From the NCBI RefSeq assembly GCF_035994945.1, contig NZ_CP108677.1:2046001-2110000 (forward strand): 64,000 nt of DNA, in the 5' to 3' direction. This document shows, in pieces, positions 1-16,982 of the stretch. Under the pieces are notes generated by a model. It made no database searches and was not told where the DNA came from. It saw only the letters and a list, made by a program, of their open reading frames with translations. A program made the position numbers and the translations under genes. Positions within the stretch are counted from its first letter, which is position 1. Each line of letters opens with the position of its first letter. Source of the DNA: Streptomyces sp. NBC_01216 (GTDB lineage: Bacteria; Actinomycetota; Actinomycetes; Streptomycetales; Streptomycetaceae).

Positions 1-1598
1 ACGACCAGCTGGACGGGCCGCTCGGGGTGGAGCAGCAGCGACCGCAGCCGGTCGGGGTCGCGCAGCATCAGCGTGAGCCGCTTGTACGAGGGGACCCGGC
101 GGGCGAAGCCGATGGTGAGGACGTCCGGGTCGAGCACCGATTCGGTCCAGCCGAGTTCGGCGTCCGCCGCGCCCCGCTGGCGCCACGAGGCCCGGACCCG
201 TTCCCGCACCTCGGTCACCAGCTGCTCGCGCAGGGTGCGGCGCAGCTCCCACAGCTCCCGGTCGTCCGGCTCGCCCGCCTCGGCAGCGGGCCGGTGACGC
301 CCGACTTCGGGAGCGGTCCAGGTGGGGGCGTGGACGCCGTTGGTGATCGAGGTGATCGGCACCTCGTCGGCGTCGAAGCCGGGCCACAGTCCGGCGAACA
401 TCGCCCGGCTGACGGTCCCGTGGAGGGTGGAGACGCCGTTGGCGCGCTGGGCCAGGCGCAGCCCCATGGCGGCCATGTTGAAAAGGCCGGGTTCGCCGCC
501 GAGCGGGGTCTCGTCGCCGAGGGCGAGGACACGGTTCACGTCGACGCCGGGGAGTTCGCCGTCCTCGCCGAGATGGCGGGCGACCTGGGCGCGGTCGAAG
601 CGGTCGATGCCCGCGGGGACGGGGGTGTGGGTGGTGAAGACGGTCCCGGCTCGGACGGTCTCCAGGGCCGCGTCGAAGGCGACGCCCTCGCCGGCGAGTT
701 CGCGGATGCGTTCGAGACCGAGGAAGCCCGCGTGGCCCTCGTTGGTGTGGAAGACCTCGGGGTCCGGTGTGCCGGTGAGCCGGCAGTAGGTGCGGACGGC
801 GCGGACGCCGCCGATGCCGAGGAGCATCTCCTGGAGCAGCCGGTGCTCGCTGCCGCCGCCGTACAGCCGGTCGGTGACCTCGCGTTCGCCGGGCGCGTTC
901 TCCTCCACGTCGGAGTCGAGCATCAGCAGCGGCACCCGGCCGACCTGCGCGGTCCAGACGTGGGCGTGCAGTCTCCGGCCGCCGGGCAGGGCGAGCGTGA
1001 CGCGGGCGGGGGTGCCGTCGGTCTCGCGGAGCAGCTCGACCGGCATCTCTCCGGGGTCGAGGACGGGGTAGTGCTCCTGCTGCCAGCCGTCCCGGGACAG
1101 GGACTGGCGGAAGTAGCCGTGGCGGTAGAGGAGGCCGACGCCGACGAGGGGGACGCCGAGGTCACTGGCGGCCTTGAGGTGGTCTCCGGCGAGGATGCCG
1201 AGGCCGCCGGAGTACTGGGGCAGGGCGGCGGTGACGCCGAACTCGGGCGAGAAGTAGGCGACGGCGGCGGGCAGCTCGCCGTCGTGTTCCGGGTGGAGCT
1301 GGTACCAGCGGGGTGCGTGCAGGTACTGGTGGAGGTCCTCGGCCGCGGCGCGCAGGCGGGCCAGGAAGTCCTGGTCCGCGGCGAGGGCGGCGAGGCGGGT
1401 GGCGGAGACGGCACCGAGCAGCCGGACGGGATCGAGGTCCTCGCCGCGGCGGCCCGGCGGGTTGCCGGGGTCGACGGCGGCGAAGAGTTCCCTGGTGGGC
1501 TCGTGCCAGGACCAGCGCAGGTTGCGCGCCAGATCGCTGAGGGGTCGAAGGGTGTCGGGGAGGACGGGGCGCACGGTGAATCGACGGATTGCCTTCAC
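1..1598 (-). CDS. glgP: Alpha-glucan (glycogen/maltodextrin) phosphorylase, 3' end outside window
   Basis: The first ~530 residues of a GlgP-type phosphorylase, which releases glucose-1-phosphate from alpha-1,4-glucan in the cytoplasm; the gene runs off the left edge, so the PLP-binding catalytic end is not visible. The N-terminus (MKAIRRFTVRP, then LRPLSDLARNLRWSWHEPTRELF) is the DUF3417 domain of actinobacterial glycogen phosphorylases, followed by AYFSPEFGVTAALPQYSGGL and GILAGDHLKAASDLGVPLVG, which are phosphorylase signatures. GTG start chosen because AAGG lies 8 bases upstream; an in-frame GTG at 1609 is less well placed. In S. coelicolor glgP is divergent from and adjacent to glgE; here glgE is 17 kb away. 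Confidence 0.93.
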   Translation of the reverse strand, partial: MKAIRRFTVRPVLPDTLRPLSDLARNLRWSWHEPTRELFAAVDPGNPPGRRGEDLDPVRLLGAVSATRLAALAADQDFLARLRAAAEDLHQYLHAPRWYQLHPEHDGELPAAVAYFSPEFGVTAALPQYSGGLGILAGDHLKAASDLGVPLVGVGLLYRHGYFRQSLSRDGWQQEHYPVLDPGEMPVELLRETDGTPARVTLALPGGRRLHAHVWTAQVGRVPLLMLDSDVEENAPGEREVTDRLYGGGSEHRLLQEMLLGIGGVRAVRTYCRLTGTPDPEVFHTNEGHAGFLGLERIRELAGEGVAFDAALETVRAGTVFTTHTPVPAGIDRFDRAQVARHLGEDGELPGVDVNRVLALGDETPLGGEPGLFNMAAMGLRLAQRANGVSTLHGTVSRAMFAGLWPGFDADEVPITSITNGVHAPTWTAPEVGRHRPAAEAGEPDDRELWELRRTLREQLVTEVRERVRASWRQRGAADAELGWTESVLDPDVLTIGFARRVPSYKRLTLMLRDPDRLRSLLLHPERPVQLV

Positions 1599-1736: not shown

Positions 1737-3212
1737 TCAGCGTGGCGCGCCCGCCCGGAGGGCGCCGGTCCGGGTCTCGTAGGGCGATCCCTGGTTGACG
1801 GCGGTGGGGTCGAAGGCGCCGGTGGCGGCGTACCGGGCGGCGATCTCGGCCAGTTCCGGGGCGGGGATCACCTGGTGGATGTCGGTGAAGCCGTGCGGGG
1901 CCCGCTGGTGCGCGAGGTTGATGACGACCTCGGGGCCGAGCTGCCGGTTGGCCCGCTGGAGCGCGGTCATCGCGGGCCGGCGTGTCTCCTCGTAGGCGGC
2001 GAGGCCCTCCGCGGGGTCGCGGTGCAGGGCGAGGGCGTGGGCGAGGGCGCGGGCGTCGACGATGGACTGGGTGGCTCCGTTGGAGCCGATCGGGTACATC
2101 GCGTGGGCGGCGTCGCCGATGAGGGTGGTGCGGCCGTGGCTCCACCGGGCGAGGGGCTCCCGGTCGACCATGGGGTACTCGTGGGCGGAATCGGCGGCGC
2201 GCAGGACGTCGGGGACGCTGACGCCGTCGAACTCCCAGCCGTCGTAGTGGTGCAGGAAGGAGTCCACGGCCACCGGGCGGTTCCAGTCGCCCCGGTAGCG
2301 TTCGTCCGCGCTGTCGGCGGGCCGGGCGAGGGCCCAGTTGACGAGGACCTCCCCGTTCGGGTCTCCGCCGTCGGGGCCGGAGGGGGCGCTCATCGGGTAG
2401 ACGACGGCCTTCTGCCGGTCGTCGCCCGCGATGAACATGAAGGGGGCGACGGCGCGGGCCGGCATCCGGGACACGCCGCGCCAGACCAGCATGCCGTTCC
2501 AGGGCGGGCTGCCCTCGCCGGGGTTGAGGGAGGCCCGGACGGCGGAGCGGATGCCGTCGGCGCCGATCAGCACGTCCGGTTCGAGGGAGGCCCGGCCGCG
2601 GGTGGCGCCGTCGCGGTGCTCCAGCCGGATGCGGGGGCGGCCGTCGGGCAGGGGCTCCACACCGGTGACGCGGACGCCGGTGACCAGGGCGGCCGGGCCG
2701 AGGCGTTCGCGTACGGCCTCGGCGAGGACCCGCTGGAGGTGGGCGCGGTGTACGGAGAGCTGGGGCCAGCGGTATCCGGCGCCGAGTCCGCGCGGCTCGC
2801 GGGAGATGAGGGCGCCGCACCGGTGGTAGTAGCGGAGTTCGCGGGTGCGGAGCGCGCCGGATTCGAGTCGGCTCCGCAGGCCGAGCGCGTCGAGTTCGCG
2901 GACCGCGTTGGGCATGAGGTTGAGTCCGGCGCCGACCGGGAGGCTGGTGCGGACCGATTCGACGACGGTGACCCGGCCGAATCCGGCGGCGTGCAGGGCG
3001 AGCGCGGCGGTGAGGCCCGCGATGCCGCCGCCGGCGACGACGATGTGGAGGTGCCGGGGGCCGGCCAGATCACGCCGGCCGTCCGGCAGGACGTCGGAGA
3101 GGCCGCCGGGGAGGGCGTCGGAGGGGGATTCGGGGAGGGAGTCGGGCAGGGCGTCCGCCGGTCCTTCGGCCGGGAAGGACAGCGGGTGCGGGGAGGGGAC
3201 GCGGGAGATCAT
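1737..3212 (-). CDS. FAD-dependent aromatic-type monooxygenase
   Basis: A 491-residue class A flavoprotein monooxygenase of the salicylate/p-hydroxybenzoate hydroxylase type. Visible motifs: Rossmann FAD site VVAGGGIAGLTAALAL (about residues 57-72), GADGIRSAVRASL (the DG motif, about 220), and TLIGDAAHAMYPIGSNGA (the GD motif, about 345). The first ~55 residues before the FAD site are a low-complexity Pro/Leu/Ser/Asp stretch that family members usually lack. ATG start with GGAG upstream; the start is 10 bases after the stop of the PrnB-like gene, so the two are almost certainly co-transcribed. Substrate unknown; the pairing suggests it acts on the product or precursor of the PrnB-like haem enzyme. 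Confidence 0.85.
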   Translation of the reverse strand: MISRVPSPHPLSFPAEGPADALPDSLPESPSDALPGGLSDVLPDGRRDLAGPRHLHIVVAGGGIAGLTAALALHAAGFGRVTVVESVRTSLPVGAGLNLMPNAVRELDALGLRSRLESGALRTRELRYYHRCGALISREPRGLGAGYRWPQLSVHRAHLQRVLAEAVRERLGPAALVTGVRVTGVEPLPDGRPRIRLEHRDGATRGRASLEPDVLIGADGIRSAVRASLNPGEGSPPWNGMLVWRGVSRMPARAVAPFMFIAGDDRQKAVVYPMSAPSGPDGGDPNGEVLVNWALARPADSADERYRGDWNRPVAVDSFLHHYDGWEFDGVSVPDVLRAADSAHEYPMVDREPLARWSHGRTTLIGDAAHAMYPIGSNGATQSIVDARALAHALALHRDPAEGLAAYEETRRPAMTALQRANRQLGPEVVINLAHQRAPHGFTDIHQVIPAPELAEIAARYAATGAFDPTAVNQGSPYETRTGALRAGAPR

Positions 3213-3222
3213 CGGTTCTCCT

Positions 3223-4380
3223 TCAGGCCGCCGACGAACCGGCGCGGACGGGGGACGCGCCCGTCCGGGGCGCGGGCCGGCCGTTCGTGGCGTGGCGCAC
3301 CAGGGTCTCGTTGTCCCGGGTCAGGTCCAGGATCGAGCGCAGCAGGGCGACCGGAGCGCCGCCGCTGCCTTCCTCGTACAGCCGCAGGTCCTCGCTGTAC
3401 GCCTTGCGGGCGATGCCGATGTGGCGGGCGCGGAAGGTCTTGAGGATCTTCAGGACGCGGCCGAGTGCGCGGGCGGAGGCGGCCAGCCGCGGGGGCAGCC
3501 GCTCCGCGTTCTCCCAGCTGAGGGCCGCGGAGAGCTTGCTGACGGCGGAGACCCCGCCGGCGTACTGGGCGTGGAACTCGCGCCAGGACGGCAGGCTGTA
3601 CGGGAGCGATTCGGCGAGGAAGGCGTCGTAGGCGGCGTCGGAGCGGTCGCACTGCCACAGCGTCAGGTCGACCAGCCAGAGCGGGACCTGGGCGGCCGCG
3701 GGGCCGAGGTAGGAGCGCCCGGCGATGTCGATCTCCTCGAAGTAGGGGCGCAGGGTGAGCGCGAAGTACTCCGGGGAGACGTTGGCGACGGTGAAGTCGA
3801 TGGAGTCGACGATCGACTGCACGTGGTGGGCGGTGCGGTCCAGGGCGGTGGCGAAGCCGGGGTCGTACGGTTCGAGGCAGGCGACCCGGGCGCAGGTGTC
3901 GAGGGCGGCGACCAACCCGGGGAACGCCATCCGGACGGCTTCCTGCAGGTCGGCCTCCATCGGGTGGCCGGTGTACGTTCGGCGGCGCGGGCCGGCCGGG
4001 TTCCACGTGGTGTAGTGGTGCACGGTGTCCCGGGGCACCATGTCACTCCGCCGGCCCAGGAGTTCGAGGACCGGGACGGCCTCGGGGACGGCTTCGGCGG
4101 GCTGGACGCCGTGACGTTTCAGCGAACCGAGCAGGATGCCGAGGTCGCGCATGGCCGCGAGCGCGGCCTCCACGCTCCACTCGGCGGCCCGGTCGAGGTC
4201 GGGCAGCAGGGTGCGCAGGGCCACGACGAGCGCGTCGGTGTCGGCGTCGGCGTTCATCGCGGGCAGCGCGGCCAGCAGGGCGTCGGCGCCGAGCGGGTCG
4301 GCGCCGCGTATGTGGTCGATGCGGTAGCGCGGGTCTCCGTGTTCTTCGAGACCGGGCGCGACGAGGTCGTACAGGGTCAA
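3223..4380 (-). CDS. PrnB-family haem enzyme (monodechloroaminopyrrolnitrin synthase-like, DUF1864)
   Basis: About 385 residues. Long stretches match what I recall of Pseudomonas PrnB (361 residues): AAMRDLGILLGSLKRHG, RDTVHHYTTWNPAG, YTGHPMEADLQEAVRM, VSPEYFALTLRPYFEEI, RSYLGPAAAQVPLW and RVLKILKTFRARH. PrnB is a histidine-ligated haem enzyme of the tryptophan/indoleamine dioxygenase superfamily that rearranges 7-chlorotryptophan to an aminophenylpyrrole in pyrrolnitrin biosynthesis. TTG start at 4380 chosen because GAGGGG lies 7 bases upstream and upstream codons are low-complexity Arg/Pro. No tryptophan halogenase, second halogenase or Rieske oxygenase is nearby, so the product is not pyrrolnitrin; a tryptophan-derived arylpyrrole or other oxidised indole is an inference. 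Confidence 0.86.
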   Translation of the reverse strand: MTLYDLVAPGLEEHGDPRYRIDHIRGADPLGADALLAALPAMNADADTDALVVALRTLLPDLDRAAEWSVEAALAAMRDLGILLGSLKRHGVQPAEAVPEAVPVLELLGRRSDMVPRDTVHHYTTWNPAGPRRRTYTGHPMEADLQEAVRMAFPGLVAALDTCARVACLEPYDPGFATALDRTAHHVQSIVDSIDFTVANVSPEYFALTLRPYFEEIDIAGRSYLGPAAAQVPLWLVDLTLWQCDRSDAAYDAFLAESLPYSLPSWREFHAQYAGGVSAVSKLSAALSWENAERLPPRLAASARALGRVLKILKTFRARHIGIARKAYSEDLRLYEEGSGGAPVALLRSILDLTRDNETLVRHATNGRPAPRTGASPVRAGSSAA

Positions 4381-4518
4381 CGGAATGCCCCTCTGTCTTT
4401 GGTCGGGTGTGGTGCGCCGCCGGGGCGGCGGGCGGATGCGTCGACGGTAGGCCCGTCGACACCCGCGCCCGCGCCCCGGCGGCTCACTCGCCGAGGTCAC
4501 ATGTGGTCACCCACGGGG

Positions 4519-6039
4519 TCACCGCGGGTCGGTCACCCTGTCCCGGGCCGGTGGCGCCGGGGCGGGGACGGGCAGCCGGAGCCGTCCCGAGAGCAGTGCG
4601 GCGGACGCGGCGAAGGCGGCGCCGACGAGCAGGGCGACACGGAAACCGGGGGTCTGGGCCGCGGCTCCGGCTCCTTCGGCGCGGCCGGTGGCGATCGCCA
4701 CCAGGACCGCCAGGCCGAGCACCGAGCCGAACTGCTGGCTGGTGTTGACGAGCCCGGAGGCGAGTCCGGTCTCCTCGGGCGCGGCCTCCGCGGTGGCGGC
4801 CACGTTGGTGGTGACCATGACCAGCGGCAGGGCGACGCCGATGAGGAGGCTCGGTGCGAGGACGGTGCCGGCGAAGGTGCCGTCGGAGTCGAGCGCGAGG
4901 GCCAGCCATGCGGTTCCGGCGCACAGCAGCACGAAGCCGAGCACCATGGTGCGGGTCAGGCCGATCCGGAAGATGAGCCGGCCGGTCAGCGGGGCGACCA
5001 GGACGACGACCACGGACAACGGCAGCAGACCGAGCCCGCCGCCGAGCGGGCCGTAGCCGAGGACGCTCTGCAGATACAGGCTGACCAGGAAGAACATCGG
5101 GAACATCGCCATTTGGCCGAGGGCGCTGAGGGTGTTGGCCAGCCGCAGGGCGGGACGGGCGAGAACCTCCGGCGGGACGAGCGGCACGGCGGTACGGGTC
5201 TCGGTGACGGCGAACACGGCGAGCAGCGCCAGCCCGGCACCGCCCGCCCCGAGGGTCCGTCCGGACAGCCAGCCGGACGTGCCCGCGCCGACGAGCGCGT
5301 ACGCGAGGAGGCCGAGCCCGGCGGTGGCGGTCAGCGCCCCGACGAGGTCGAAACCCCGGCCGGCGGACGCGCCCGGGAGCCGGCCCGCGGCGGCCGGTGC
5401 GCAGGGCGGGCCATCCGGGGCCGGGGTGACGGCGGGCGGGGTGACGGCGGGCGGAACGCGGGGGTCCGGGGTGGCGGCGGGCGGCAGGACACGCGGGGCC
5501 AGGGCGGCGAGGAGGACGGCGGCGAGCACGTTGAGCCAGAAGGTGGAGCGCCAGCCGAGGAGGTCGGTGAGGACCCCGCCGAGGACGGTCCCGAGGACGC
5601 CGCCGAGGCCGCCCATGGCGGCGAAGGCGCCGAGGGCCCGGTGCCGGGCGGGCCCGTCGGGGAAGAGCACGAGCAGCAGAGCGAACGCGGACGCGGCGGC
5701 GAGGGCTGCGCCACAGCCCTGGACGGCGCGTGCGGCGACCAGGGCCTCCGTACGCGGGGCGAGGGCGCCGACGGCGGACGCGGCGGCGAGCAGCCCGAGC
5801 CCGACGAGGTAGAGCCTGCGGTGGCCGAACAGGTCGGCGGCGCGTCCGCCGAGCAGCAGCAGCCCGCCGAAGGTGATCAGGTAGGCGTTGGCCACCCAGG
5901 ACAGTCCGGCCGATCCGGCCCCGAGATCCGCCCCGACGGAGGGCAGCGCCACATTGACGATCGCGGTGTCCAGGATCAGCAGGCACTGCGTGGCGGCGAG
6001 CAGCACCAGCGCGCCTCTCGGAGCGCGGTCGCCGCTCAC
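4519..6039 (-). CDS. MFS drug/metabolite exporter, DHA2 (EmrB/QacA) type
   Basis: 506 residues with about 14 hydrophobic helices. The family signature is clear: LILDTAIVNVALPSVGADL in helix 1, NAYLITFGGLLLLGGRAADL followed by FGHRR (motif A) after helix 2, and SGLVNTSQQFGSVLGLAVLV near the C-terminus. GTG start chosen for GGGAGG six bases upstream. It lies between the HpaB-type and PrnB-like genes on the same strand (112 and 138 bp gaps), so it is probably the exporter or self-protection gene for the cluster product. Substrate is unknown. Confidence 0.9.
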   Translation of the reverse strand: MSGDRAPRGALVLLAATQCLLILDTAIVNVALPSVGADLGAGSAGLSWVANAYLITFGGLLLLGGRAADLFGHRRLYLVGLGLLAAASAVGALAPRTEALVAARAVQGCGAALAAASAFALLLVLFPDGPARHRALGAFAAMGGLGGVLGTVLGGVLTDLLGWRSTFWLNVLAAVLLAALAPRVLPPAATPDPRVPPAVTPPAVTPAPDGPPCAPAAAGRLPGASAGRGFDLVGALTATAGLGLLAYALVGAGTSGWLSGRTLGAGGAGLALLAVFAVTETRTAVPLVPPEVLARPALRLANTLSALGQMAMFPMFFLVSLYLQSVLGYGPLGGGLGLLPLSVVVVLVAPLTGRLIFRIGLTRTMVLGFVLLCAGTAWLALALDSDGTFAGTVLAPSLLIGVALPLVMVTTNVAATAEAAPEETGLASGLVNTSQQFGSVLGLAVLVAIATGRAEGAGAAAQTPGFRVALLVGAAFAASAALLSGRLRLPVPAPAPPARDRVTDPR

Positions 6040-6111
6040 CGCACACCTCCCCGGGTGGGGCGTCGGGCTCCGGTGCCGACGAGGCGGGGCGGGGTCGCGG
6101 CCGGGGCTGCC

Positions 6112-6149
6112 GCCGGGCCGGCGGCGCCCGGCCGCCGACGCGGCCCGGC
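6112..6149 (-). terminator. Hairpin between HpaB-type and MFS genes
   Basis: GCCGGGCCG pairs with CGGCCCGGC around a 20-nt loop, beginning 2 bases after the HpaB-type stop. It could terminate or attenuate transcription into the exporter gene, so the four genes may not form one simple operon. Confidence 0.4.
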
Positions 6150-6151
6150 CG

Positions 6152-7582
6152 TCACCTCGTCGTCCCGAGGTCGTAGCCGTCCAGGCAGCCTTGGGCCAGC
6201 GAGACGCAGTCGTCGGCCCCGCCCGCCCAGGTCTGCATCGTGAGGTAGACGTGCGGGGCGCCCTGGTAGAAGCGCTCGTACTGTTCGTGCCGGCCGGCGA
6301 ACTCCGAACCGAGCGCGTCCCAGGCGAGCTTGAGCAGCTTGACGCGGTCCTCCGCCGGCTGGCCGGGGGCCCGGAAGTACTGCTGGACCAGCGGCCCGAG
6401 TTCGGGGTGGAGGAGGTCACGGCCGGACGCGGGCTGCTGAATGAGCGCCCCGCCCGCCAGCAGTTTGATGTCCTGTACCGCGCGCGGGTACAGCTCGCCG
6501 GCCATGATCCGCTGGGCGAAGGAGATCTCCTGCCCGGGCCGGACGCCGCCGCGTCCCTCGTCGACCGCCTCCCAGGACGCCTCCGCCGCGAGGACGAACG
6601 CCTTGGCCTGCGCGACCATGCCGAGAAGCCGCCCGGTCGCCTGGGTGACGGCCGGCACCTGGTCGGTTCCGTTCGAGCGGGCGATCAGGATCGCCAGTCC
6701 GGTGAGGAACTCCAGCTTGGTCCAGAACCGGGTGGCGGACTGGTGCACGAAGTTCAGGTAGGCCGGGGTCCGCCACCACATCGCGGCGGTCGCGTCGACG
6801 TCCCGGTAGGTCAGGACCCGTTCCCAGGGGACGAACACGTCCTCGCAGACGAGCAGCGCGTCGTTCTCGTCGTACCGCGAGGAGAGCGGGTGGTCGAAGA
6901 CGGAGCGGGCCGCCGCCTCGTAGGAGGTGCGGGAGATCAGCCTGAGGCCGGGGGTGCCGGCGGGAATCGAGAAGCTCACGGCGCGCCCGTTGTCCTCGGG
7001 CGCGAGGGGTTCGATCGTGCCGACGAGGATCTCGTCGGCGAAGACCGCGCCGGTACCGATGGACTTGGCGCCACGCACCACGATGCCGTCGTCGCGTTCC
7101 GCCACCACCCGCACCACCAGGTCGTCCTCGCCGCGCCCCGACGCGGGGTTCGTGATGGTGAAGGCGCAGTACAGGCTGCCCTCGGCGAGCCGCCGGTGGT
7201 AGGCGAGGGCGTTGCCGGCGCCGTCGAAGCCCTCGGTGGTGAAGACCCCGGGCACGGCGGCGAATCCGGCCGCGCCCGAGGCCATGTAGTCGGGGGTGCG
7301 GCCGAGGAAGCCGTAACTGGCCTCCGCCCACACCTTGTACGCCCGCCGGCGCGCCACCAGGTCCTCGTACGAACGCGGCACGGCGTACGCGCGGTGCACG
7401 CCGTCCCGGAGCAGGGCGGAGCTGTGCGGGGAGTCGCGGGCGAGGTCGAACAGCCCGGCGAAGGAGGCCGCGGTGGCCCCGAAGGCGGGGTGCGTGGTGA
7501 CGTCCTTGATCCGCTCCCCGTCGAGCCAGATCTCGCGCCCGTCCCGCAGCGCCTCCAGATACTCCTGCCCGGACCTCGTCAC
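6152..7582 (-). CDS. HpaB-family flavin-dependent phenol hydroxylase (4-hydroxyphenylacetate 3-monooxygenase oxygenase component)
   Basis: 476 residues of the HpaB/HpaH two-component monooxygenase family, which uses externally supplied FADH2 to ortho-hydroxylate phenols. The N-terminus (MTRSGQEYLEALRDGREIWL) and the core motifs IVVRGAKSIGTGAVFADEI, CEDVFVPWERVLTYRDV and AGGALIQQPAS are characteristic. No HpaC-type flavin reductase is encoded nearby, so reduced flavin must come from elsewhere in the genome. GTG start chosen for GGAGAGG nine bases upstream. First gene of the minus-strand cluster; it probably hydroxylates an aromatic intermediate of the PrnB-like pathway, though acting alone on tyrosine or hydroxyphenylacetate is possible. 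Confidence 0.87.
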   Translation of the reverse strand: MTRSGQEYLEALRDGREIWLDGERIKDVTTHPAFGATAASFAGLFDLARDSPHSSALLRDGVHRAYAVPRSYEDLVARRRAYKVWAEASYGFLGRTPDYMASGAAGFAAVPGVFTTEGFDGAGNALAYHRRLAEGSLYCAFTITNPASGRGEDDLVVRVVAERDDGIVVRGAKSIGTGAVFADEILVGTIEPLAPEDNGRAVSFSIPAGTPGLRLISRTSYEAAARSVFDHPLSSRYDENDALLVCEDVFVPWERVLTYRDVDATAAMWWRTPAYLNFVHQSATRFWTKLEFLTGLAILIARSNGTDQVPAVTQATGRLLGMVAQAKAFVLAAEASWEAVDEGRGGVRPGQEISFAQRIMAGELYPRAVQDIKLLAGGALIQQPASGRDLLHPELGPLVQQYFRAPGQPAEDRVKLLKLAWDALGSEFAGRHEQYERFYQGAPHVYLTMQTWAGGADDCVSLAQGCLDGYDLGTTR

Positions 7583-7764
7583 CGCTTATCGCCTCTCCTC
7601 GTATGCCATGGCTGTCGCCGTCCTGAGCCTGTCCGGCCCAGGGCACCCGGGCAATGAACGTCCGTCCAGCGGTCCTTAAGAACCGGCCAGCCGAATGTCA
7701 CGAATAGGCCGATTCGGGGGATTCCCCGAGGCCGAAGGCCGCGAGAGGGGCACGAGCGAGGCGC

Positions 7765-8050
7765 GCCGGAACGGCCAGCATCCGCCGCTCGCTCCAGCGC
7801 ACCCGCACCGGCGGCCTCACCCACCTGCCCACCAAGACCCGGGCGTCCGAGCGACATGTCGCGCTCCCGACCGCATGCCTCCACTCCCTCAAGGAGTACA
7901 CAGGACGGCAGGACAAGGAGCGAGAGACAGCAGGGTCAGCCTGGCAGGACAGCGGGCTCGTCTTCACCACGCCGACGGGCCGGCCTCTCGACCCCGCCAA
8001 CCTCACCCGCCGTTTCCTCGAACGGGCCGGGCTCCGGCGCATCCGCTTGT
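7765..8050 (+). pseudogene. Remnant of a tyrosine-type site-specific integrase
   Basis: One frame reads AGTASIRRSLQRTRTGGLTH, then LPTKTRASERHVALPTACLH, and after ~35 residues SGLVFTTPTGRPLDPANLTR and RFLERAGLRRIR. This is the middle of the catalytic domain of actinomycete integrases, which continues 'F-HDLRH' in intact members. Here similarity stops at ~8050, and the HxLRH box and catalytic tyrosine are absent. There is no start codon and the N-terminal half is gone. It marks the edge of a former integrative element; the IS begins about 100 bp downstream. Confidence 0.7.
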
Positions 8051-8150
8051 TGAGTCGGCCCGGGGCGCGGTGCCGGGATTGCTCCCGGTCCGTTTCCCGG
8101 GACCGCTCGCCGAACCCGCCGTACCGATCTCTCGGTAACGGGCTCTCCAC

Positions 8151-9037
8151 GGAGCGTTTTCCAACCTCACGCTGATGCGTGGTGAAGGACGAGGACGGCC
8201 TTCACCACGTCGGTGATGCGGTTGGTGCTGCAGCGGAGCTTCCGCAGGAGGCGCCAGCCCTTGAGGGTGGCCATGGCCTGCTCGCCGAGGCAGCGGATCT
8301 TGGCATGGGTGGTGTTGTGGCGGCGCTTCCATCGCTTGAGGCGACGGCCGCGAAACGGTACCCGGACGGGTCCGCCGGCGCCTTGATACGCCTTGTCGGC
8401 CCAGCATTCGAGTCCTGCTTCGGTGAGGGCTTCGATGATGCCGTGCTGTCGTGCGGCGGTGAGGTCGTGAGTCGATCCGGGCAGCGCCGGCGAGGCCCAG
8501 AGCAACCGTCCGAACGGGTCGGTGAGGACCTGGACGTTCATGCCACGGCGCTTGTGCTTCCCCGAGTAGTAGGGGGTGTCAGCGGCGATGCGGTCGATCG
8601 GCGGCAGAGTGCCGTCGAGGATGACGAACGCCTTCGTCCGGATCGTCCTCATCGCCTCGGCCAGGGACGGGGCCAGAGCGGCCAGGATGTCGACGGCCTC
8701 GCGTATGTAGCGGAAGGCGGTCGCGATCCCGATGCCGAAACCGGCCGCGAGTTGGGCGTAGGTGTCACCACACCGCAGGTGGGCCAGGGCCAGCAGAGCC
8801 TGTCGCGAGGCGGGAAGCCGCCGCCACCGCGTGCCGATCTCCTGCCGTCTGGCGGTCAGCCGCCCGGCCAGGAACCGCAAGGTGCGGCTGGACAGATCGA
8901 TCGAAGACGGATAGACAAGCGCGCGAAGCTCCTGGCAGACACGGGTGATCTTGGTCGAGAACCCGTCCACCAGGAGCTTCGTCGTCGCGCAGGACTGTCC
9001 ACCTCGCGGTCAACGAAACCAGCTTGGAAAAGGCTCA
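8151..9037 (-). mobile_element. IS5-family insertion sequence
   Basis: A transposase gene flanked by imperfect inverted ends. The left end GGAGCGTTTTCCAACC (8151-8166) resembles the reverse complement of the right end, TGAGCCTTTTCCAAGC (about 9022-9037), with 13 of 16 matching. The exact outer ends and the target duplication could not be fixed by eye, so boundaries are good to tens of bases. The element lies between the integrase remnant and the RHS locus. Confidence 0.55.
8167..8970 (-). CDS. IS5-family DDE transposase (DDE_Tnp_4 type)
   Basis: 267 residues, apparently full length. An N-terminal HTH region (LLALAHLRCGDTYAQLAAGF, then GIGIATAFRYIREAV) precedes a DDE core: LDGTL (Asp119), PGSTHDL (Asp169) and GEQAMATLKGWRLL (Glu230), the last being the IS5 'E..F..LK.WR' box. 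No frameshift or premature stop, so it may still be active. GTG start; an upstream start is possible. Its stop overlaps the left inverted end of the element, as is common in compact ISs. Confidence 0.85.
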   Translation of the reverse strand: MDGFSTKITRVCQELRALVYPSSIDLSSRTLRFLAGRLTARRQEIGTRWRRLPASRQALLALAHLRCGDTYAQLAAGFGIGIATAFRYIREAVDILAALAPSLAEAMRTIRTKAFVILDGTLPPIDRIAADTPYYSGKHKRRGMNVQVLTDPFGRLLWASPALPGSTHDLTAARQHGIIEALTEAGLECWADKAYQGAGGPVRVPFRGRRLKRWKRRHNTTHAKIRCLGEQAMATLKGWRLLRKLRCSTNRITDVVKAVLVLHHASA

Positions 9038-9052
9038 CTGCCGTCAAAGGCA

Positions 9053-9095
9053 GCGGGTCGCCCCACCGAAAGGTTTCGGTGGGGCGACCCGCTGT
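9053..9095 (-). terminator. Strong terminator hairpin downstream of the toxin/immunity genes
   Basis: Perfect 20-bp stem (arms AGCGGGTCGCCCCACCGAAA and its complement) with a 2-nt apex, about 80 bp after the stop of the minus-strand immunity gene and just outside the IS end. Positions may be off by one. Confidence 0.7.
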
Positions 9096-9171
9096 CTATT
9101 TGCGTCCGACTGTTCTCATTTCCGCAAAACTCGGTAGATCCGTGCTGATTCAATTCAGCCAGGCATCGAAA

Positions 9172-9450
9172 TCAATCGACTGATCGCCCCAGGCGTTCCG
9201 CAAGTGAAATCTGACCGGGTGGCCTCAGGATGAATTTGTCTTTCCGCTCGTCAAAGCAGTCCAGATAGCAGCTGACCCGCCCTCCGACCTCATAACGGTC
9301 TCCGTCATCGATATAGAGAGCGTCGATCAGCCCGACCCGAGACAGCCCCAGGTCAACGATGATCCCCCAGCGGAATACCGCCTCGACCTGTCCATCGATC
9401 ATCTCGCCAATGAGACACTGCTCACGTGCACTGAGCTGCTTGTTCATCAT
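9172..9450 (-). CDS. S1-like (OB-fold) small protein, probable immunity protein of the RHS toxin
   Basis: 92 residues. GEMIDGQVEAVFRWGIIVDL continuing GLSRVGLIDALYIDD and YEVGGRVSCYLDCFDE has the spacing of an S1 RNA-binding domain (G.V..V..WG..VDLG....G.I). The ATG overlaps the RHS stop by 4 bp (ATGA), and it is the last gene before a strong terminator: the classic immunity position in polymorphic toxin loci. AT-richer than its surroundings. The immunity role is inferred from position; S1-like domains are not an immunity family I know, so a direct neutraliser or a target-protecting RNA-binding protein are both possible. Confidence 0.7.
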   Translation of the reverse strand: MMNKQLSAREQCLIGEMIDGQVEAVFRWGIIVDLGLSRVGLIDALYIDDGDRYEVGGRVSCYLDCFDERKDKFILRPPGQISLAERLGRSVD

Positions 9451-12400
9451 CCGCCGACCATGCTTCGAGGGTACTGGTTAAGGCGGTCAAACGCCGTATT
9501 CGGGATCGCCACCTCCACGTTGGGCACGCCGTTGTGCGAGCCTACGTACTGACTGAAGTGCTGCTCGAAGTCGGCCTTAGGAATCCTGACCTGCACGACA
9601 CCACCGTCGTAGCCTCCCCGGCTCGCATAGTCAAGCGCAATCGTCTTGCCGTCATCTTCGAGGCCGAAGTACGCGCGTCCATCAGGGTAACCGTTACCGG
9701 ATCCCGGAAAGTCCTTCTCCGTAAATCCGTCCTTGAGCAGTCTGTCCGTCATACCCCTACCCGGCGCCTTGTAAATCGTGATGTCACAGTTGGGTCCACC
9801 ACTGTTATGCACGAGAACCGGCGTGTTGCCCGCCAGCACATAGTACGTGTGCAGGTCACTGACGGTCAGGTTGTGGACGGTGGCGCCCTGGCTGGTCCAG
9901 CGCTGGACCGAGGAGACCCGGACGTAGGTGCCCGTGCTCGTCTGGAGCCACTGGCCCGACTTCAGGTCGGTGGCGTCGATCCACTTGCCGATTTCCGGAA
10001 CCCAGAAGGGGTGGCCGTCGGTCGCGATGACCTGGGCGGTCTTCGTGCCTTTCTTACCGTCGGCGTCTATGGTGATCTTGACGAGGTGCTTGAGGCCCTC
10101 GCCCTTGATCTCGGCGGTGACGGTCTCGATCCGGGTCTCCCCGGTCTTCTCGTCGGTCGCGACGACCTTGTCGCCAGCCTTAACGTTCTCGATCGGCTTG
10201 CTCGTGCCGTCGGCCATCAAAACCTTCGTGCCCGGCACGAAGCTGTTACATGGGCCGCCCTTGCCTCCCTTAAGCGCCCCAGGACCGGTTCCACCTGCAA
10301 GCATGAAGGGGAATGCTGCGGCAACTTCCCGGAGAGCATTGTGAGTGCTTTGCGCGTTCCCGCAATCACTGGGATTTTCAATGCAATATGTCGCGGCGAT
10401 TTTCTTGGCGCCAGAAACGTCGCCGGTTTCACGCAGATATATTGCCGCTTTGTGGCATGCCGTTCGCCCATAACACAGGTACTTTTCGCCGATCTTGGCC
10501 CCGGTCCAGTAGTTGCCCGACTGAGCCATCGCACCGTGAGTCCAGGTGAAGTAGCGCTGCTCGAGAGTTACCAGATCGTCTGGCCCTGCACCGAACGTCT
10601 CTACCCATGCTTCCAGCTCATCGGCCGGTTTAGCATCGTCAGTAGATCCATGCCCACTGTTGTCCCTGGCACCATTGTTCTTGTCCTTACCGGATGCCTG
10701 ATCCGGGGTGCAGTACTTCACGTCCCACGAGCAGGTCCCCGGCGTTGAGCCGATCTCGAGCCCCGTCGGGTCGCTGTAGGTGACGGGATTCCCGTTGGCG
10801 TACGTGTACCCGTTCATCTGGAGCGGGTCAGTGATGTCGATGATCGGGTCGGCGGAGAGGAAGCGGCCGGTGGTGGCGTCGTATTCGCGGGCGCCGATGT
10901 GAGTCAGGCCCGTCGTGGGGTCGTCGACGCCGGTGCCGAGGAAGGTGTGGCGGCCGGGCCAGTCTGTGGGTTCGGTGCCGCGCGGGTTGCCGTACGGGTC
11001 GAAGAACCGGCGGGTGACGGCCTGATTGCCCGACTGGTCGACCGCCATGGTCGAGGTGTTGTGGTGGTCGGAGAGCAGAACCGTCAGCTTGTGTCCGGTC
11101 GCCTTGCCTCCGGTGGAGCGGACCGTGGTCGGAGCACCGGTGTGGCCGTAGTAGCGCTTGGCGTCGAGAGCCTGACCGGCGGTGTTGACGGATATCTCGG
11201 CTTCGCCGAGGTAGAGGGTTCGCTTGGTGCCGTCGTCCTCGATCAGACGGTTACCGGCCGCGTCGTAGAGGTAGGTGACGTTCGCCGCTCCGTCGTTGTC
11301 GGTGTCGGCCGAGGTGAGCTTGTTGCGCCGGTCCCAGGTGAACGTGCTGGTCTCGCCGCCCGCGGTGATGCGCTCGGTGGTGTTGCCCGAGGGGTCGTAG
11401 AGGTAGCTCTGACGCAGGCTGAAGGTCGAACCTCCGATGACCTGCCGGCTCTTGACGTCGGTGAGCGTGTGGGGCTGTGCGGTAGTCGTGGGCTGGCTGC
11501 CGTTGTTCGTGTCCCCACGGCCGTAGCTGTACTCGTACTCGTCCGTGGGTTTGACGCCCGCCGGATCGTGGACCGTCAGCTTGGTCCGGTTGCCGATCGC
11601 GTCGAACTCGTACGACTGCCAGTAGCCGCTGCCGTCGACACCGGTGGAAAGCCCGCCCTCGGCGGGGCCGGCGCCTTGCGCGGAAGTGGCGGTGGGGCAG
11701 GTGTCGCTGCCCGTCCACGCGTGGACCAGACGGCCCATCGGGTCGTAGGCGAAGCACTGCCGGTCGACCTGGTTCGTCGTCTGCGTGCCGGAGGTCTCCG
11801 ACTGGGTGCCGGTGATGGAGGTGACGTTGCCGACGGTGTCGTAGCCGTAGGCCGTCGTCGACTTCCAGACGGGACTCGTGATCTCCCGCTGGGCCACCGT
11901 CTCCTTGAGGCGACCGGTGGCCTCGTCGTACGCGGCGGTGGTCCACAGGCGCTTGGATCCTTCGCCGGAGGTGGTGCGCAGCACCTGGCCGAAGGGGTTG
12001 TAGAGGGTGCCGGAGGTGTACCAGGCCAGGCCGGAGGTGGTGATCGGCGCGCCCTCGCCGTTGTAGCGGGTGATCACCTTTTCCGCGGCGAGACCGCCGG
12101 GGGTGGCCGGGAGGGTCACCGACTGGAGCTTGCCGGTCTCCGTATAGGTGTTGGTGTAGGCGTAGGTGCCGGCGAGGCCGGTCGTGCCCGGCGTCGCGGG
12201 AATGGTGATCTTCGAGCCCGTGGGGCGGTACTCGGTGTCGTAGCCCGTGACCTCGCTGGTGAAGGCCGCGCCGCCGTTGTAGCGCGTGGAGGCGACGGGA
12301 TAGCCCTTGGCCCCGGGCAGGGTGTCGTAGGTCCACTTCGAGACGAGCGGGCCGGTCTCGGAGTCGTCGTGCAGCTCGGTCGGGCGGCCCAGCACGTCGT

Positions 12401-15400
12401 AGAGGGTGTACTGGGCGCGGTCCCGGCCGTCCCTGGACCAGGTCTGCTGGTCCAGGTCGTCGTAGCCGAAGCCGGCCGGGCCCATGTCGGGGTCCGCCGA
12501 TGCCGTCAGCCGGCCGCGGACATCGTAGGTGTAGGTCCAGGTGTTGCCGTCGGCGTCGGTGACCCTCGCGAGCTTGCCCCGCGGGTCGTAGGCGTACCGC
12601 GTGTCGTCGGACGCCGGATCAGGGCCGATCAGGCCGGTGGTGGTGTAGTGCTCGATCTTCGCGGTACGGCCGAGTGCGTCGGTCCAGGTCTTCGCCGCGC
12701 GGCTGCCCTTGAGGGGTGTGGTCCCGTCGGCGGACATGCCGGTGCGGGTCAGCGTCCAGTCTCCCGCGTAGACGGCGGTGCTGGAGTGCTGTGCGTCGCC
12801 GTCGTGCAGCGTGGTCGTGCGGACGGCGCGTCCGAGACCGTCGTAGGCGACCTTCGTCGAGTTCGGGGCCTCGAAGACGGTTTCGGGGACGAAGATCTCG
12901 GGCTTCGGTTCGTCCTTGGTGAAGTAGCTGTTCCTGGTCTCGCCGACCGAGCCGTTGGCGTTGTACAGGGTGTCGCTGACGACGCGACCGCCGCCGAGCG
13001 CCTCCGTCTGGGTCTGGCGCGGACGCAGCAGACCGTCGTAGATGGTGACGGAGTCCGCGTAGGTGCCGTTGTCACGGAGCGCCCGCATGGTGACCGCCGG
13101 GACCTTGTCGGCGTCGATCTGGTAGTCGAAGTGGACCGACGCCTTGTCCGTGGAGGAGTCGCGGGACGGGGTCCACACGTCGGTGACACGGCCGAGGTCG
13201 TCGTAGTGGCTGGTCGTCGTGCGGCCGTTGGGGTCGGTGAGGGACAGGACGGAGCCGCGTCCCGGGTCGACGGTGGAGGTCGCGGTGTGGTTCAGCGCGT
13301 TCGTGGTCGTGGCCTGGAACGGGACACCGGTGGCCGGGCTGAAGGCGTTGGCGGTCGAGGCGCCCTGGGCGTTGACGCTCTTGACGGCCCGGCCGAGCGC
13401 GTCGTACTCGGTGCGGGCCGAGGTGATCCATCCGTCACCGTCGCCGTCGATCGTGTCGACCTGACGGGGAAGTCCCTTGACGGGCGCCGCGCCGAAGGCG
13501 TTCAGCGCGTCGTAGGAGGTGCGCGCGTCGAAGATGACCTGGTCGCCCGTCGCGGAGGCCGCGTCCTGGCAGTCGCCCACCGTCGTGCGGACACGCTGAG
13601 GAAGGCCGATGAGGTGCTTCGTGACGTTGTGGACGTACGAGGTGACGGCGCACGACTCGTCGGCCTTGGTGAGAGCGCCCCCCTCCGTCTCGGTCAGCGT
13701 GTAGCTCTGCGTCTCGAGCGGCAGGTCGTAGGCGTCGCGCCTGAGGGTCTCCGAGCGCGCGGTCCGGCTCTTGCCGCCGCTGATCGACTCCTCGGCGTCG
13801 GTCCGGTCCGTCCCCGTGCTGTACGCCTCCAGGGCGGGAAGGCCGTCGCCCCGTGCCCGGGTCGCGGTCTTCCGCGCGAACGGCCGGCTCGTCTCGCGTG
13901 CGACGAGGCTGCCGCCGTCCTTGGTGGAGGAGATCGTCTCGGCGGTGCGGCCCTGGTAGGCGGGCAGGTCCTCGCCGAGGGTCTCCTCACCGGTCGAGTC
14001 CTTGACGGTGACGACCGCCCGGCCGGCGTCGCGGGACATGCCGCGGAAGTAGCGCGTGACGGTCTGGGACCGCTCCGTGGCGGTGTCCGGGTCCGCGTGG
14101 GACGTGACACCCCGCTTCACGGTGACCTTGTCGTACCCGCGCCACTGGTCGTAGGTCCGCAGCTCGGGTTTGGTGAACTCGTCGGTGTTCTTGGCCCAGG
14201 CCGCGCCCTTGGCGGTGTCGTAGACGTACGTGGTGACGACGTCCGGCTGGCGGGCGACCCGGTCCTTCTCGACGATCCGGTCGACGACGTACTTGTTGAA
14301 CCACTCGAGGGGAGGGTTCTCCAGGTCGGGATCGGGTGACCACTTGCTGGGGAAGCAGCGGCCGGTGTTCGTCTCCGGGGCGGGGTGAGCCGTGCCCTTC
14401 GGGCAGGGGGCGGAGTAGTCGACGTAGACCTCGCCGCCGGTCTCGGTGCGGACGGTCTCGACCCGGAGCCGGTCGAACTCCGGAGTCGGGTCGCTCGCGC
14501 TCTTCGCCACGCGGTTGGGCATGTCGTCGACGTTGGCGATGAAGGAGAGGTCCGGGAGCGTGGTGCTGGTCTGCGCTCCGTTCGCGCCGGGAACGCTGTA
14601 TCCGGTGCGGCGGACCGACTCCAGCCACAGCGGCGGGTGGGTGTCGGTGCGCTGCCTCGGGAACGACTGGTGCAGGTCCCATCGGTCGACGGGTGACAGC
14701 GCGGTCGAACCGGGTGTGCGCTGACCGTAGGTGCTGACCGAGGCGAGCCTGACCCGGGTCCAGAAGGTGGGCGAGGTGATGTAGCAGTTCTCGGCGCCGG
14801 TCTTGCAGTGCAGCGTGGCGGGAGTGTCCCACCAGGGCTGCTTGTCCTCGTAGTCCTTCGACTCGAACTCGGCGACGGAGCAGCTGGTCGCACCCTCGAC
14901 GACGCAGCGCTCCTTGGCGGTGAACACCACCTTGCCCGCGGGGGCGCCGGTCAGGTTGTCGCCGCGCAGACCATAGAGGACCTGCGTGGGATATCCGCCG
15001 CGGACGTAGGAGACGGCCTTCTTGAACTCCCCGTTCCTGGCGTACTCGTTGGTCTCCTGCTTCCAGTCGATGATCATGGCGTTGCCGTGGACGTCCTCGA
15101 CGTGGTCGAGGTTCCAGCGCCACGCCTGGGTGCACGAGGAGCCGGCGTAGGACGTCTGGTGGCAGGGCTCACCGCTGTGGTTGCCGAAGACGGGCACGGT
15201 GAAGGCGGAGTGGGTGACGGGGCGGCTGCCCGCCCCGTCGAGGTCGTTGCGTCCGAAGTGGTAGCGGGTTCCGTCGCGGGTGGTGACGCGCCAGTACTCG
15301 CCGTCGTACGCGCCGGTCTGCTTGGCCTTGGGGTTGCCTGCCTTGTCCAGGTACTCGATCTTGGAGCCGTCGTCGTTGGCGGGAACCCACCTGCCGTCGG

Positions 15401-15665
15401 CGTCGTTGCGGACGAGTTCGGTCGACGATCCGCCGAGGGAGAGGACGAGGTTGTCGCTGGCCCAGCAGAGGTCGGACTTCTTCTTGTCGGTGTCGTTGTC
15501 GTTGTTGGGGCTGTTCTTGCGGTCGTCCGAGCAGGAGCGGTAGCGCCGCTCGACGAAGCCGGGGTGGTAGTCCCAGCCGTCACCGATCCAGGACGCCTGG
15601 CCGTTGGCGACCGAGGTCCTGCCGTCGACGGACTGCGAGGAGTAGTTGAACGCGATCTTCGGGGC
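9447..15665 (-). pseudogene. RHS/YD-repeat polymorphic toxin with Hint domain, N-terminally truncated
   Basis: An open frame of ~2,070 codons. It opens abruptly at APKIAFNYSSQSVDGRTS, the start of the RHS barrel region, with no signal peptide or secretion module. YD repeats (YDDLGRV, YDALGRA, YDVRGRL, YDVLGRP) lead to the RHS core ending REYDATTGRFLSADPI ... YANGNPVTYSDPTGL (~10.75 kb). A variable linker follows, then a PT-Hint domain (CNSFVPGTKVLMADGTSKPI to VLVHNSG, ~10.25-9.81 kb) that should self-cleave, then a ~115-residue tip (ITIYKAPGRGMTDRLLKDGF, GRAYFGLEDDGK, VVQVRIPKADFEQHF). The tip shows a spacing compatible with an ADP-ribosyltransferase fold, but I cannot name its family. Without the N-terminus export is unlikely; internal GTG codons (for example 15197) could still give a product. 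Confidence 0.8.
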
Positions 15666-15676
15666 GGGGCCGGCCG

Positions 15677-15778
15677 GAGGGCTTCTATCGCGGCGGGCGC
15701 ACGTCCCACGAGTCCGCCTACTGGCGCGTCATCCTGCCGGCCGACGGTCTCTGGAGCGACCGGGTCGCCTTCGGGTAG
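15677..15778 (+). pseudogene. C-terminal fragment of an unidentified plus-strand gene
   Basis: The last 33 codons of a frame reading EGFYRGGRTSHESAYWRVIL then PADGLWSDRVAFG and TAG, with normal Streptomyces codon bias and followed 15 bp later by a strong terminator. Its upstream part is replaced by the truncated end of the RHS gene running the other way. I do not recognise the family. Confidence 0.5.
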
Positions 15779-15792
15779 CGCAGCGACGAAAG

Positions 15793-15843
15793 GGGCCCCG
15801 GTGCCCCCGGCCCGGTCTCCGGGGGCCGGGGGCACCGGGGCCC
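15793..15843. terminator. Bidirectional terminator
   Basis: 21-bp perfect stem (GGGCCCCGGTGCCCCCGGCCC and its complement) with a 9-nt loop, lying between the plus-strand gene fragment and the 3' end of the minus-strand araC-type gene. Confidence 0.75.
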
Positions 15844-15875
15844 TCTTGTGCTCCGCCCCGCTCCGCCTCCCCCGG

Positions 15876-16982
15876 TCACGCCGCGTGGTCGTAGCCGGAG
15901 CGGTACTCCCCCGGGGTCATCCCGAACCACTTGCGGAAGGCCAGGTGGAAGCCGACCGCGCTCTGGTAGCCGACCCGGGGCGGGACCGCGGACTGCGGGA
16001 TCGAGGTCTCGGTCAGCAGCCGGGCGGCCTCCTGCATCCGGCGTCCGGTCAGGTGGCGGGCGGGAGCCTCGCCGACGAGTTCCCGGAAGGCGGCGGTGAA
16101 GGCCGAGCGCGACATGCCGACCTCGCGGGCGAGGGACTCGATGGTCCAGGGTTCGGCGTAGCGTGTCGCGATCATCACCATGGCGCGGCTGATGCCGGGG
16201 TGCCGCAGGACCGGCAGCGTCGCCGGGTTGTCGGCGAGTTCGCGCAGCAGCGGGCGCAGCGCGAGAACCAGGGCCATCTCGAAGGCGCGCAGGGTGATGA
16301 GCCGGTCTCCGGGGCCCACCGGTCGGTCGGGCGCGGCGAGCAGCCGCAGGGTGTCGCGCAGCAGTGGTTCGCGGTCGACCTGGGCGCCGTCGAGGACGAG
16401 TGCCCAGGGCAGTGAGGTGTAGAGCCCGGTGGCGGCGCTGGCGTCGTAGTGGAGTCCGGCGCAGAGCATGCGGCTGACGGCTCCGTCTCCGGGGATGACG
16501 ATCTCGCCGGAGGTGCCCGGCTGGCGTTCGGGCAGGACGGCCCTGAGGGGTACGCCCTGCCGGTCGGGGCGGTCGGAGAGGCGGTGGGCGATGCCGGTGG
16601 GGAAGACGATCAGGTCGCCGGCGCGCAGTTCGAGCGGGGCCTGGCCGTCGCCGGTGATCCAGCAGCCTCCTTCGACGATGTAGTGGAGGACGGCGCAGCT
16701 CTGTTCCGCGTCGCCCTCGATGGCCCAGGGGGCACGGACGTGCCAGCGGCTGTCGAAGACCCCGGTGAGGCGGAGTGGCTTCAGCAGTTCGCTCAGCAGG
16801 TCGTCCCGCTCCTCGCAGTCGTCCCCGCGCCGGTCGTCGCACGAGCCCCGAGGGCCGTCCTCTCCCCGCCCGTGGGGCCGGTCCTCGCCCCATTCCTCCG
16901 GCCGGTTCTCGCGCCGGTCTTCGCGCCGGTGCTCACGTCGGTCCTCACGTCGGTCGTCACGGTCGGTTCGCACGTTGTCCAT
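15876..16982 (-). CDS. AraC-family transcriptional regulator with N-terminal cupin
   Basis: 368 residues. A cupin sensor (CAVLHYIVEGGCWITGDG, LELRAGDLIVFPTGIAHRLS) occupies about 85-250, and an AraC double HTH the C-terminus (TIESLAREVGMSRSAFTAAF, SAVGFHLAFRKWFGMTPGEY). The first ~60 residues are an unusual highly charged run (DRDDRREDRREHRREDRREN and similar) encoded by degenerate ~12-bp tandem repeats at 16870-16980; most relatives begin near DDLLSELLKPLRLTGVFDSR. Divergent from the NmrA-family gene across 116 bp, which it probably controls, as is typical for this regulator/oxidoreductase pairing. Confidence 0.88.
   Translation of the reverse strand: MDNVRTDRDDRREDRREHRREDRRENRPEEWGEDRPHGRGEDGPRGSCDDRRGDDCEERDDLLSELLKPLRLTGVFDSRWHVRAPWAIEGDAEQSCAVLHYIVEGGCWITGDGQAPLELRAGDLIVFPTGIAHRLSDRPDRQGVPLRAVLPERQPGTSGEIVIPGDGAVSRMLCAGLHYDASAATGLYTSLPWALVLDGAQVDREPLLRDTLRLLAAPDRPVGPGDRLITLRAFEMALVLALRPLLRELADNPATLPVLRHPGISRAMVMIATRYAEPWTIESLAREVGMSRSAFTAAFRELVGEAPARHLTGRRMQEAARLLTETSIPQSAVPPRVGYQSAVGFHLAFRKWFGMTPGEYRSGYDHAA

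Follow-up and report, generated by a model that had tools for sequence, protein, structure and literature searches.

What does a gene of the PrnB family do in a Streptomyces genome where no halogenase gene stands beside it? We addressed this question for a 64,000-nucleotide stretch of Streptomyces sp. NBC_01216 (contig NZ_CP108677.1, positions 2,046,001 to 2,110,000; here called the window), which lies in a 7.7-Mb genome and encodes a PrnB-type heme enzyme near its left end. An earlier note, made from the sequence of the window, had described a four-gene cluster in which this gene is flanked by a flavin adenine dinucleotide (FAD) monooxygenase gene, 10 bp away on the same strand, and by genes for a major facilitator superfamily (MFS) exporter and an HpaB-type hydroxylase. 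The layout proved accurate, with all four complete frames on the minus strand and the gap at 3213 to 3222, and the four genes are real, but the unit has six genes: an AraC-type regulator and an NmrA-type reductase had been missed. We find that this six-gene unit is real and conserved, that it is probably biosynthetic, and that it is not a pyrrolnitrin cluster. We lean, if by a modest degree, toward reading it as a specialized-metabolism island that would turn tryptophan into an exported, oxygenated, non-halogenated product. Its parts, in window coordinates, are as follows:

1737-3212, minus strand: FAD monooxygenase of the PhzS type (group A), complete open frame
3223-4380, minus strand: PrnB-type heme enzyme, complete open frame
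4519-6039, minus strand: putative MFS exporter of the drug-efflux type (MFS_1, 147.1 bits), complete open frame
6152-7582, minus strand: HpaB-type phenol hydroxylase (HpaB_N, 262.6 bits; HpaB, 178.5 bits), complete open frame
7652-7690, minus strand: 39-bp conserved element upstream of hpaB, candidate operator
15876-16982, minus strand: AraC-type regulator with a Cupin_6 domain (Cupin_6, 125.6 bits; HTH_18, 73.1 bits)
17117-18040, plus strand: NAD(P)-binding reductase of the NmrA type, oriented divergently to the regulator (NmrA, 97.8 bits)

PF08933, the Pfam family of the PrnB-type protein, was found in 48 of 392 genomes of the genus, and we compared 48 stretches of 12.8 to 20 kb around PF08933 matches in 47 genomes besides the window's own. 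By content, 31 carry a minimal cluster like that of the window, 4 an extended one (see below), 8 a distant type at about 30% identity, which was left out of the window-type counts, and 1 an SO4414-like gene; 3 others hold PrnB, a monooxygenase, and an LCM-family methyltransferase, and 1 a PrnB-like fragment beside an aminotransferase (methyltransferase and aminotransferase were each Pfam-scanned in one stretch). The window-type cluster occurs in 32 of the 392 sampled Streptomyces genomes, its own included (∼8%, about 1 in 12). In the 31 minimal stretches, homologues exceeding 80% of the length were found for the monooxygenase in 30, PrnB in 30, the MFS protein in 29, HpaB in 30, the AraC-type regulator in 27, and the NmrA-type reductase in 29. 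All six are kept at this length in 22 stretches and the original four in 27, so that the separation of the four genes in other genomes, which the earlier note had named as evidence against itself, is not what we see. The pairwise divergences of the bordering glgP, the monooxygenase, PrnB, MFS, HpaB, and NmrA genes correlate across 24 genomes, window excluded (rho, 0.66 to 0.85 for 15 pairs; none of 500 permutations was as high in any pair), and the ratio of nonsynonymous to synonymous substitution rates (dN/dS) lies between 0.10 and 0.47 in 17 comparisons of the window with three relatives.

The tightest association is that of PrnB and monooxygenase, the latter lying directly downstream in 36 of 38 window-type genes (gap, −7 to 105 bp, with ten 4-bp overlaps); the two exceptions are L036, where the monooxygenase is truncated, and the fragment L051. 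In a 39th stretch, both proteins share a single 856-amino-acid frame (L054:9393-11963, on the same contig as L131:9956-12526). This PrnB-PhzS frame comes from one genome, Streptomyces sp. Root1304, and is either a natural fusion or the result of a lost stop codon. Across the class, 9 of 394 sampled genomes, belonging to 3 of 137 genera, matched, two of these genomes only partly, and a gammaproteobacterial metagenome-assembled genome combines PrnB and monooxygenase with a divergent DsbA-like gene.

The PrnB-type protein scores 133.8 bits against PF08933 (cut-off, 27), matches PrnB among PDB sequences at an E value of 3e-63 over query residues 25 to 365, and has the PrnB fold. In the alignment it keeps a histidine at position 313 and a serine at position 332 of PfPrnB, which we take to be the axial heme ligand and a residue of the carboxylate-binding loop, respectively; the lack of the heme histidine, the other finding that would have spoken against the earlier note, was not observed. 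The histidine is conserved in 33 of 34 aligned rows (exception, L034) and the serine in 32 of 34 (exceptions, L034 and L151), and 32 of 34 rows have a tyrosine in place of PfPrnB Val117, the others being PfPrnB itself (Val) and L034 (Gln). For FbPrnB, the crystallized Flavobacteriales homologue (PDB 9dfg), the structural report gives Ser319 as the carboxylate-binding loop serine and a tyrosine at the Val117 position as making the pocket narrower (PMC11791213), which is why Val117 may be a special feature of the chlorotryptophan enzyme. Family membership is established for sequence, fold, and heme ligand, and formation of an aminophenylpyrrole is a predicted activity. No second PrnB-like gene was found in the window's genome at an E value of ≤0.001. 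Since NCBI labels many homologues (among the best 120 of 381, with 8,000 candidates scored) as "monodechloroaminopyrrolnitrin synthase PrnB family," the family is already known by name.

That name may mislead for proteins like L034 (L034:9367-10671), the highest PF08933 scorer in the genus (319 bits), which we rejected as a marker of a prn cluster. It is ∼20% identical to the window's PrnB and has arginine in the aligned heme-histidine column, where the alignment may be off at ∼20% identity, and no prn genes were recognized beside it by eye, its neighbors not having been profile-scanned. Two further types differ from the window's. The eight stretches of the distant type (L067, L074, and L076 to L081) all share neighbor families of their own, namely, GHMP-kinase-type and pyridoxal-phosphate-decarboxylase-type genes (Pfam, L076 only) and a methyltransferase-like gene (by eye), and arginine replaces a conserved tryptophan in all six of the eight that were aligned. 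The third cluster type (L059:7433-10655, L073, and L075) joins PrnB and a PhzS-type monooxygenase to the LCM-family methyltransferase, without HpaB and MFS genes.

The partner of PrnB, simply an FAD monooxygenase in the earlier note, is indeed a flavin enzyme (FAD_binding_3, 87.6 bits) and is more precisely of the PhzS type by sequence, fold, and flavin motifs. It also passes the Pfam Trp_halogenase threshold (22.8 bits; cut-off, 21). We rejected it as a halogenase, as the match covers only the FAD-binding start (residues 57 to 113) and the halogenase motif WxWxIP is missing, being found in none of the 21 homologues examined; the same model matches in 5 of 14 control genomes, Escherichia coli included. 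Stronger matches lie elsewhere in the genome, one of 25.2 bits, N-terminal, ∼0.91 Mb away and one of 89.7 bits ∼1.0 Mb away. The latter (G000:C1:1053461-1054540) is a possible tryptophan-halogenase-type flavoprotein (L138 and L139), ∼1 Mb from the window. As the earlier note held, no PrnA/PrnC-type flavin halogenase is linked to the PrnB gene in the six-gene unit, and the Rieske N-oxygenase PrnD is not among its six genes, all of which have other Pfam assignments (no whole-genome Rieske search was made). PhzS performs decarboxylative hydroxylation, according to two reports (PMC4044012 and PMC6692525), and the window's enzyme probably hydroxylates the PrnB product. The HpaB-type protein matches 4-hydroxyphenylacetate 3-monooxygenase in the PDB (E value, 1.3e-75), and the earlier claim of an exporter finds support in an MFS protein that appears closest to drug-export types, its best NCBIfam model being the EmrB-like TIGR00711 (189 bits, under the model cut-off of 230.2).

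Compared with prnABCD, the window's PrnB shares family, fold, heme histidine, and loop serine (37% identity over 339 residues), whereas the six-gene unit lacks the PrnA and PrnC halogenases and the Rieske enzyme PrnD, has tyrosine instead of Val117, and pairs PrnB with a PhzS-type partner. FbPrnB (33% identity) also has the tyrosine but sits on a separate long branch and has leucine where the window and PfPrnB have tyrosine (Pf 321). That PrnB is known only from pyrrolnitrin, as the earlier note stated, does not hold: besides the Flavobacteriales homologue (PMC11791213), PdnC of the paenidepsin cluster of Paenibacillus is a PrnB homologue outside pyrrolnitrin, described as adjoining a nonribosomal peptide synthetase and predicted to hydroxylate tryptophan, a likeness we draw by description only (PMC13036774). 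With respect to the phenazine-tailoring monooxygenases PhzS and Mpz9 (the latter likened by description only), the conserved neighbors of the unit include no phenazine core gene, and the substrate must differ. No description of this Streptomyces cluster was found among the open-licence papers listed, judged by titles and the starts of abstracts.

A start of the pathway from tryptophan is best supported by the extended relatives, which bear extra tryptophan genes. Six such genomes (Streptomyces parvulus, Streptomyces sp. WAC 04229, Streptomyces sp. SA15, S. harbinensis, Kitasatospora aureofaciens, and G097) all contain homologues of the six genes and, in addition, TrpC and TrpD, a MocR-type regulator, a second enzyme of the PhzS type, a stand-alone ketosynthase, and a DsbA-type protein; a berberine-bridge-enzyme (BBE)-type oxidase is found in five, TrpG and TrpE in five, and 3-deoxy-D-arabino-heptulosonate 7-phosphate (DAHP) synthase in three, the other stretches ending before that point (ten genes of L046 were named by Pfam and the others by homology, with TrpG and DAHP synthase assigned by eye). 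Four extended genomes have 2, 2, 2, and 3 TrpC-type genes, whereas two minimal genomes have a single one each; TrpD-type N-domains, which are also present in other enzymes, number 3, 3, 3, and 4 compared to 2 and 2. The core of ketosynthase, PrnB, monooxygenase, and DsbA recurs in S. griseocarneus, UNOC14_S4, Virgisporangium, and Kitasatospora MAP5-34, and TrpC and TrpD homologues occur in 6 of the 10 ketosynthase-bearing relatives; in an eleventh, L152, the contig ends inside PrnB. Directly upstream of PrnB in all 11 genomes (L038, L040, L046, L053, L084, L085, L087, L088, L089, L109, and L152), the ketosynthase has glutamine for the catalytic cysteine and keeps both histidine motifs, with no acyltransferase or acyl carrier protein gene recognized beside it at these loci. 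Ketosynthase domains with this Cys-to-Gln exchange decarboxylate in loading modules. The earlier suggestion of tryptophan as a substrate gains support from these neighborhoods, and we consider the case for it fairly strong.

The element upstream of hpaB, CTGGMCGGTTCTTAAGGACCNCTGGACGGNCGTTCATTG, contains two direct repeats at a spacing of 21 bp. It is present in 31 of 31 minimal stretches, an in-sample count, as the pattern was derived from the same stretches, and in 25 of 29 further minimal stretches, two of the four misses lacking that DNA; it was found in none of 13 extended stretches (10 genomes), none of 16 other stretches, and none of 50 single-base shuffles of the window. With three mismatches allowed, the genome contains no copy other than that of the window. 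The araI half-sites have a similar 21-bp direct-repeat spacing, and because this spacing suits an AraC-type protein, we regard the element, with moderate confidence, as a candidate operator that the regulator of the unit would bind.

The island is set between glgP and glgE-treS, as we presume these flanking genes to be from their families:

1-1574, minus strand: glgP, left border, extending past the window edge (match of >80% length in 30 of 31 minimal stretches)
18660-20588, plus strand: glgE, right border (present in 28 of 31 minimal stretches)
from 20585: treS, after glgE, right border
7706-15874: insertion, outside the pathway (homology with L036 breaks at 7705 and returns at 15875)
8167-8970: IS5-type transposase, inside the insertion (Pfam)
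9447-15197: Rhs/pretoxin-HINT gene of 1,916 amino acids, inside the insertion (Pfam)

Among 30 glgE stretches, 9 have a divergent glgP within 1.5 kb, 7, among them that of the window, show the NmrA gene upstream, and 14 are uninformative. The insertion of ∼8.2 kb splits the regulator from HpaB in the window and begins 15 bp past the 39-bp element, leaving it intact. Further called genes also lie between regulator and HpaB in L044, L099, and L106, so this spot may attract insertions.

In the pathway that we propose, the AraC-type regulator would bind the direct-repeat element and turn on hpaB-mfs-prnB-phzS. The PrnB-type enzyme would take free, unchlorinated L-tryptophan at its heme and convert it by rearrangement into a product of the 3-(2-aminophenyl)pyrrole type, the carboxyl group being kept or lost; the PhzS-type enzyme, encoded next downstream, would hydroxylate this product, possibly exchanging carboxyl for hydroxyl; HpaB, with a flavin reductase encoded elsewhere in the genome, might add a second hydroxyl in the ortho position; the NmrA-type reductase may act on an imine or quinone state; and export of the product would fall to the MFS protein. 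We hold the kind and order of these steps weakly. The scheme retains the tryptophan, heme enzyme, and exporter of the earlier note, whose oxidative rearrangement, hydroxylation, and export took account of neither the PhzS type nor the two additional genes. Rapidithrix thailandica belongs to another phylum than Streptomyces. Its natural products reportedly include 3-(2′-aminophenyl)pyrrole and marinoquinoline A (PMC2630848), the former being non-halogenated and of the kind expected from PrnB chemistry on tryptophan.

Several observations weigh against this interpretation. Parts of the cluster are lost in some strains (the monooxygenase is truncated in L036, L063 lacks MFS and most of HpaB, and L064 lacks MFS), and G217 and G754 retain only remnants at the same glgP-glgE site, from which we conclude that loss of the island occurs. 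No reductase partner for HpaB was found among the conserved neighbors of the unit. Genes for tryptophan supply are absent from the minimal cluster, the link to tryptophan coming from relatives whose PrnB is ∼53% identical, and of the 10 ketosynthase-bearing relatives, three (L088, L089, and L109) show no trp genes in their stretches and the contig of another comes to an end. Finally, the two crystallized PrnB sequences are joined to the tree by long branches (1.8 and 2.3 changes per column) that are marked as unsure, and a different reaction is therefore possible.

Such a reaction, for instance hydroxylation of the tryptophan ring of the kind reported for Luz15 and BifE, with the flavin enzymes then yielding a polyhydroxylated indole or an indolequinone, strikes us as rather doubtful. 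It would suit a family of heme-dependent aromatic oxygenases whose members catalyze several reactions with a related fold (PMC11791213), and the hydroxylation of tryptophan residues predicted for PdnC (PMC13036774). The PDB sequence and fold matches favor PrnB over the TDO-type subfamily of Luz15 and BifE, whose own sequences lay outside the comparison; TyrH, SfmD, and TDO chains appeared neither in the PDB sequence search at an E value of 10 nor among the fold entries listed (at most 50), absences that exclude nothing. Improbable, in our view, is a catabolic or detoxifying cluster that breaks down an aromatic or tryptophan-derived compound moved across the membrane by the MFS protein: HpaB- and salicylate-hydroxylase-like proteins also act in degradation and AraC-type regulators often respond to an inducer, but by Pfam no ring-cleavage enzyme is among the six conserved genes, the extended relatives carry extra biosynthetic tryptophan genes, and the transporter resembles drug-export types. 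That the four genes are adjacent by accident, without joint function, is scarcely credible, for although most sampled genomes of the genus lack the cluster and several carry it in partly decayed form, near-full-length retention of all four, correlated divergences, dN/dS below 0.5, the conserved upstream element, and the single PrnB-monooxygenase frame effectively refute it.

Beyond the preferred tryptophan-to-product island, we tentatively raise the possibility that PrnB chemistry is mainly a non-halogen one. The PrnB-PhzS pair would then make a family of hydroxylated (2-aminophenyl)pyrroles, free of halogen and widespread in Streptomyces; the extended clusters of Kitasatospora, S. parvulus, Virgisporangium, and others, each with a stand-alone Cys-to-Gln ketosynthase, a DsbA-type protein, often a BBE-type oxidase, and a tryptophan supply of its own, would form a branch that makes a larger alkaloid; and chlorinating pyrrolnitrin synthesis would be a specialized offshoot marked by Val117.

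The phenylpyrrole class has already yielded an antifungal drug and crop fungicides. If the island does what we propose, ∼8% of the sampled Streptomyces genomes would bear an overlooked tryptophan-oxidizing pathway, with one regulator and one candidate operator as a genetic handle and a route to new phenylpyrrole-type molecules. It would also reveal a role for PrnB chemistry without chlorine and add new homologues to the study of how PrnB works.
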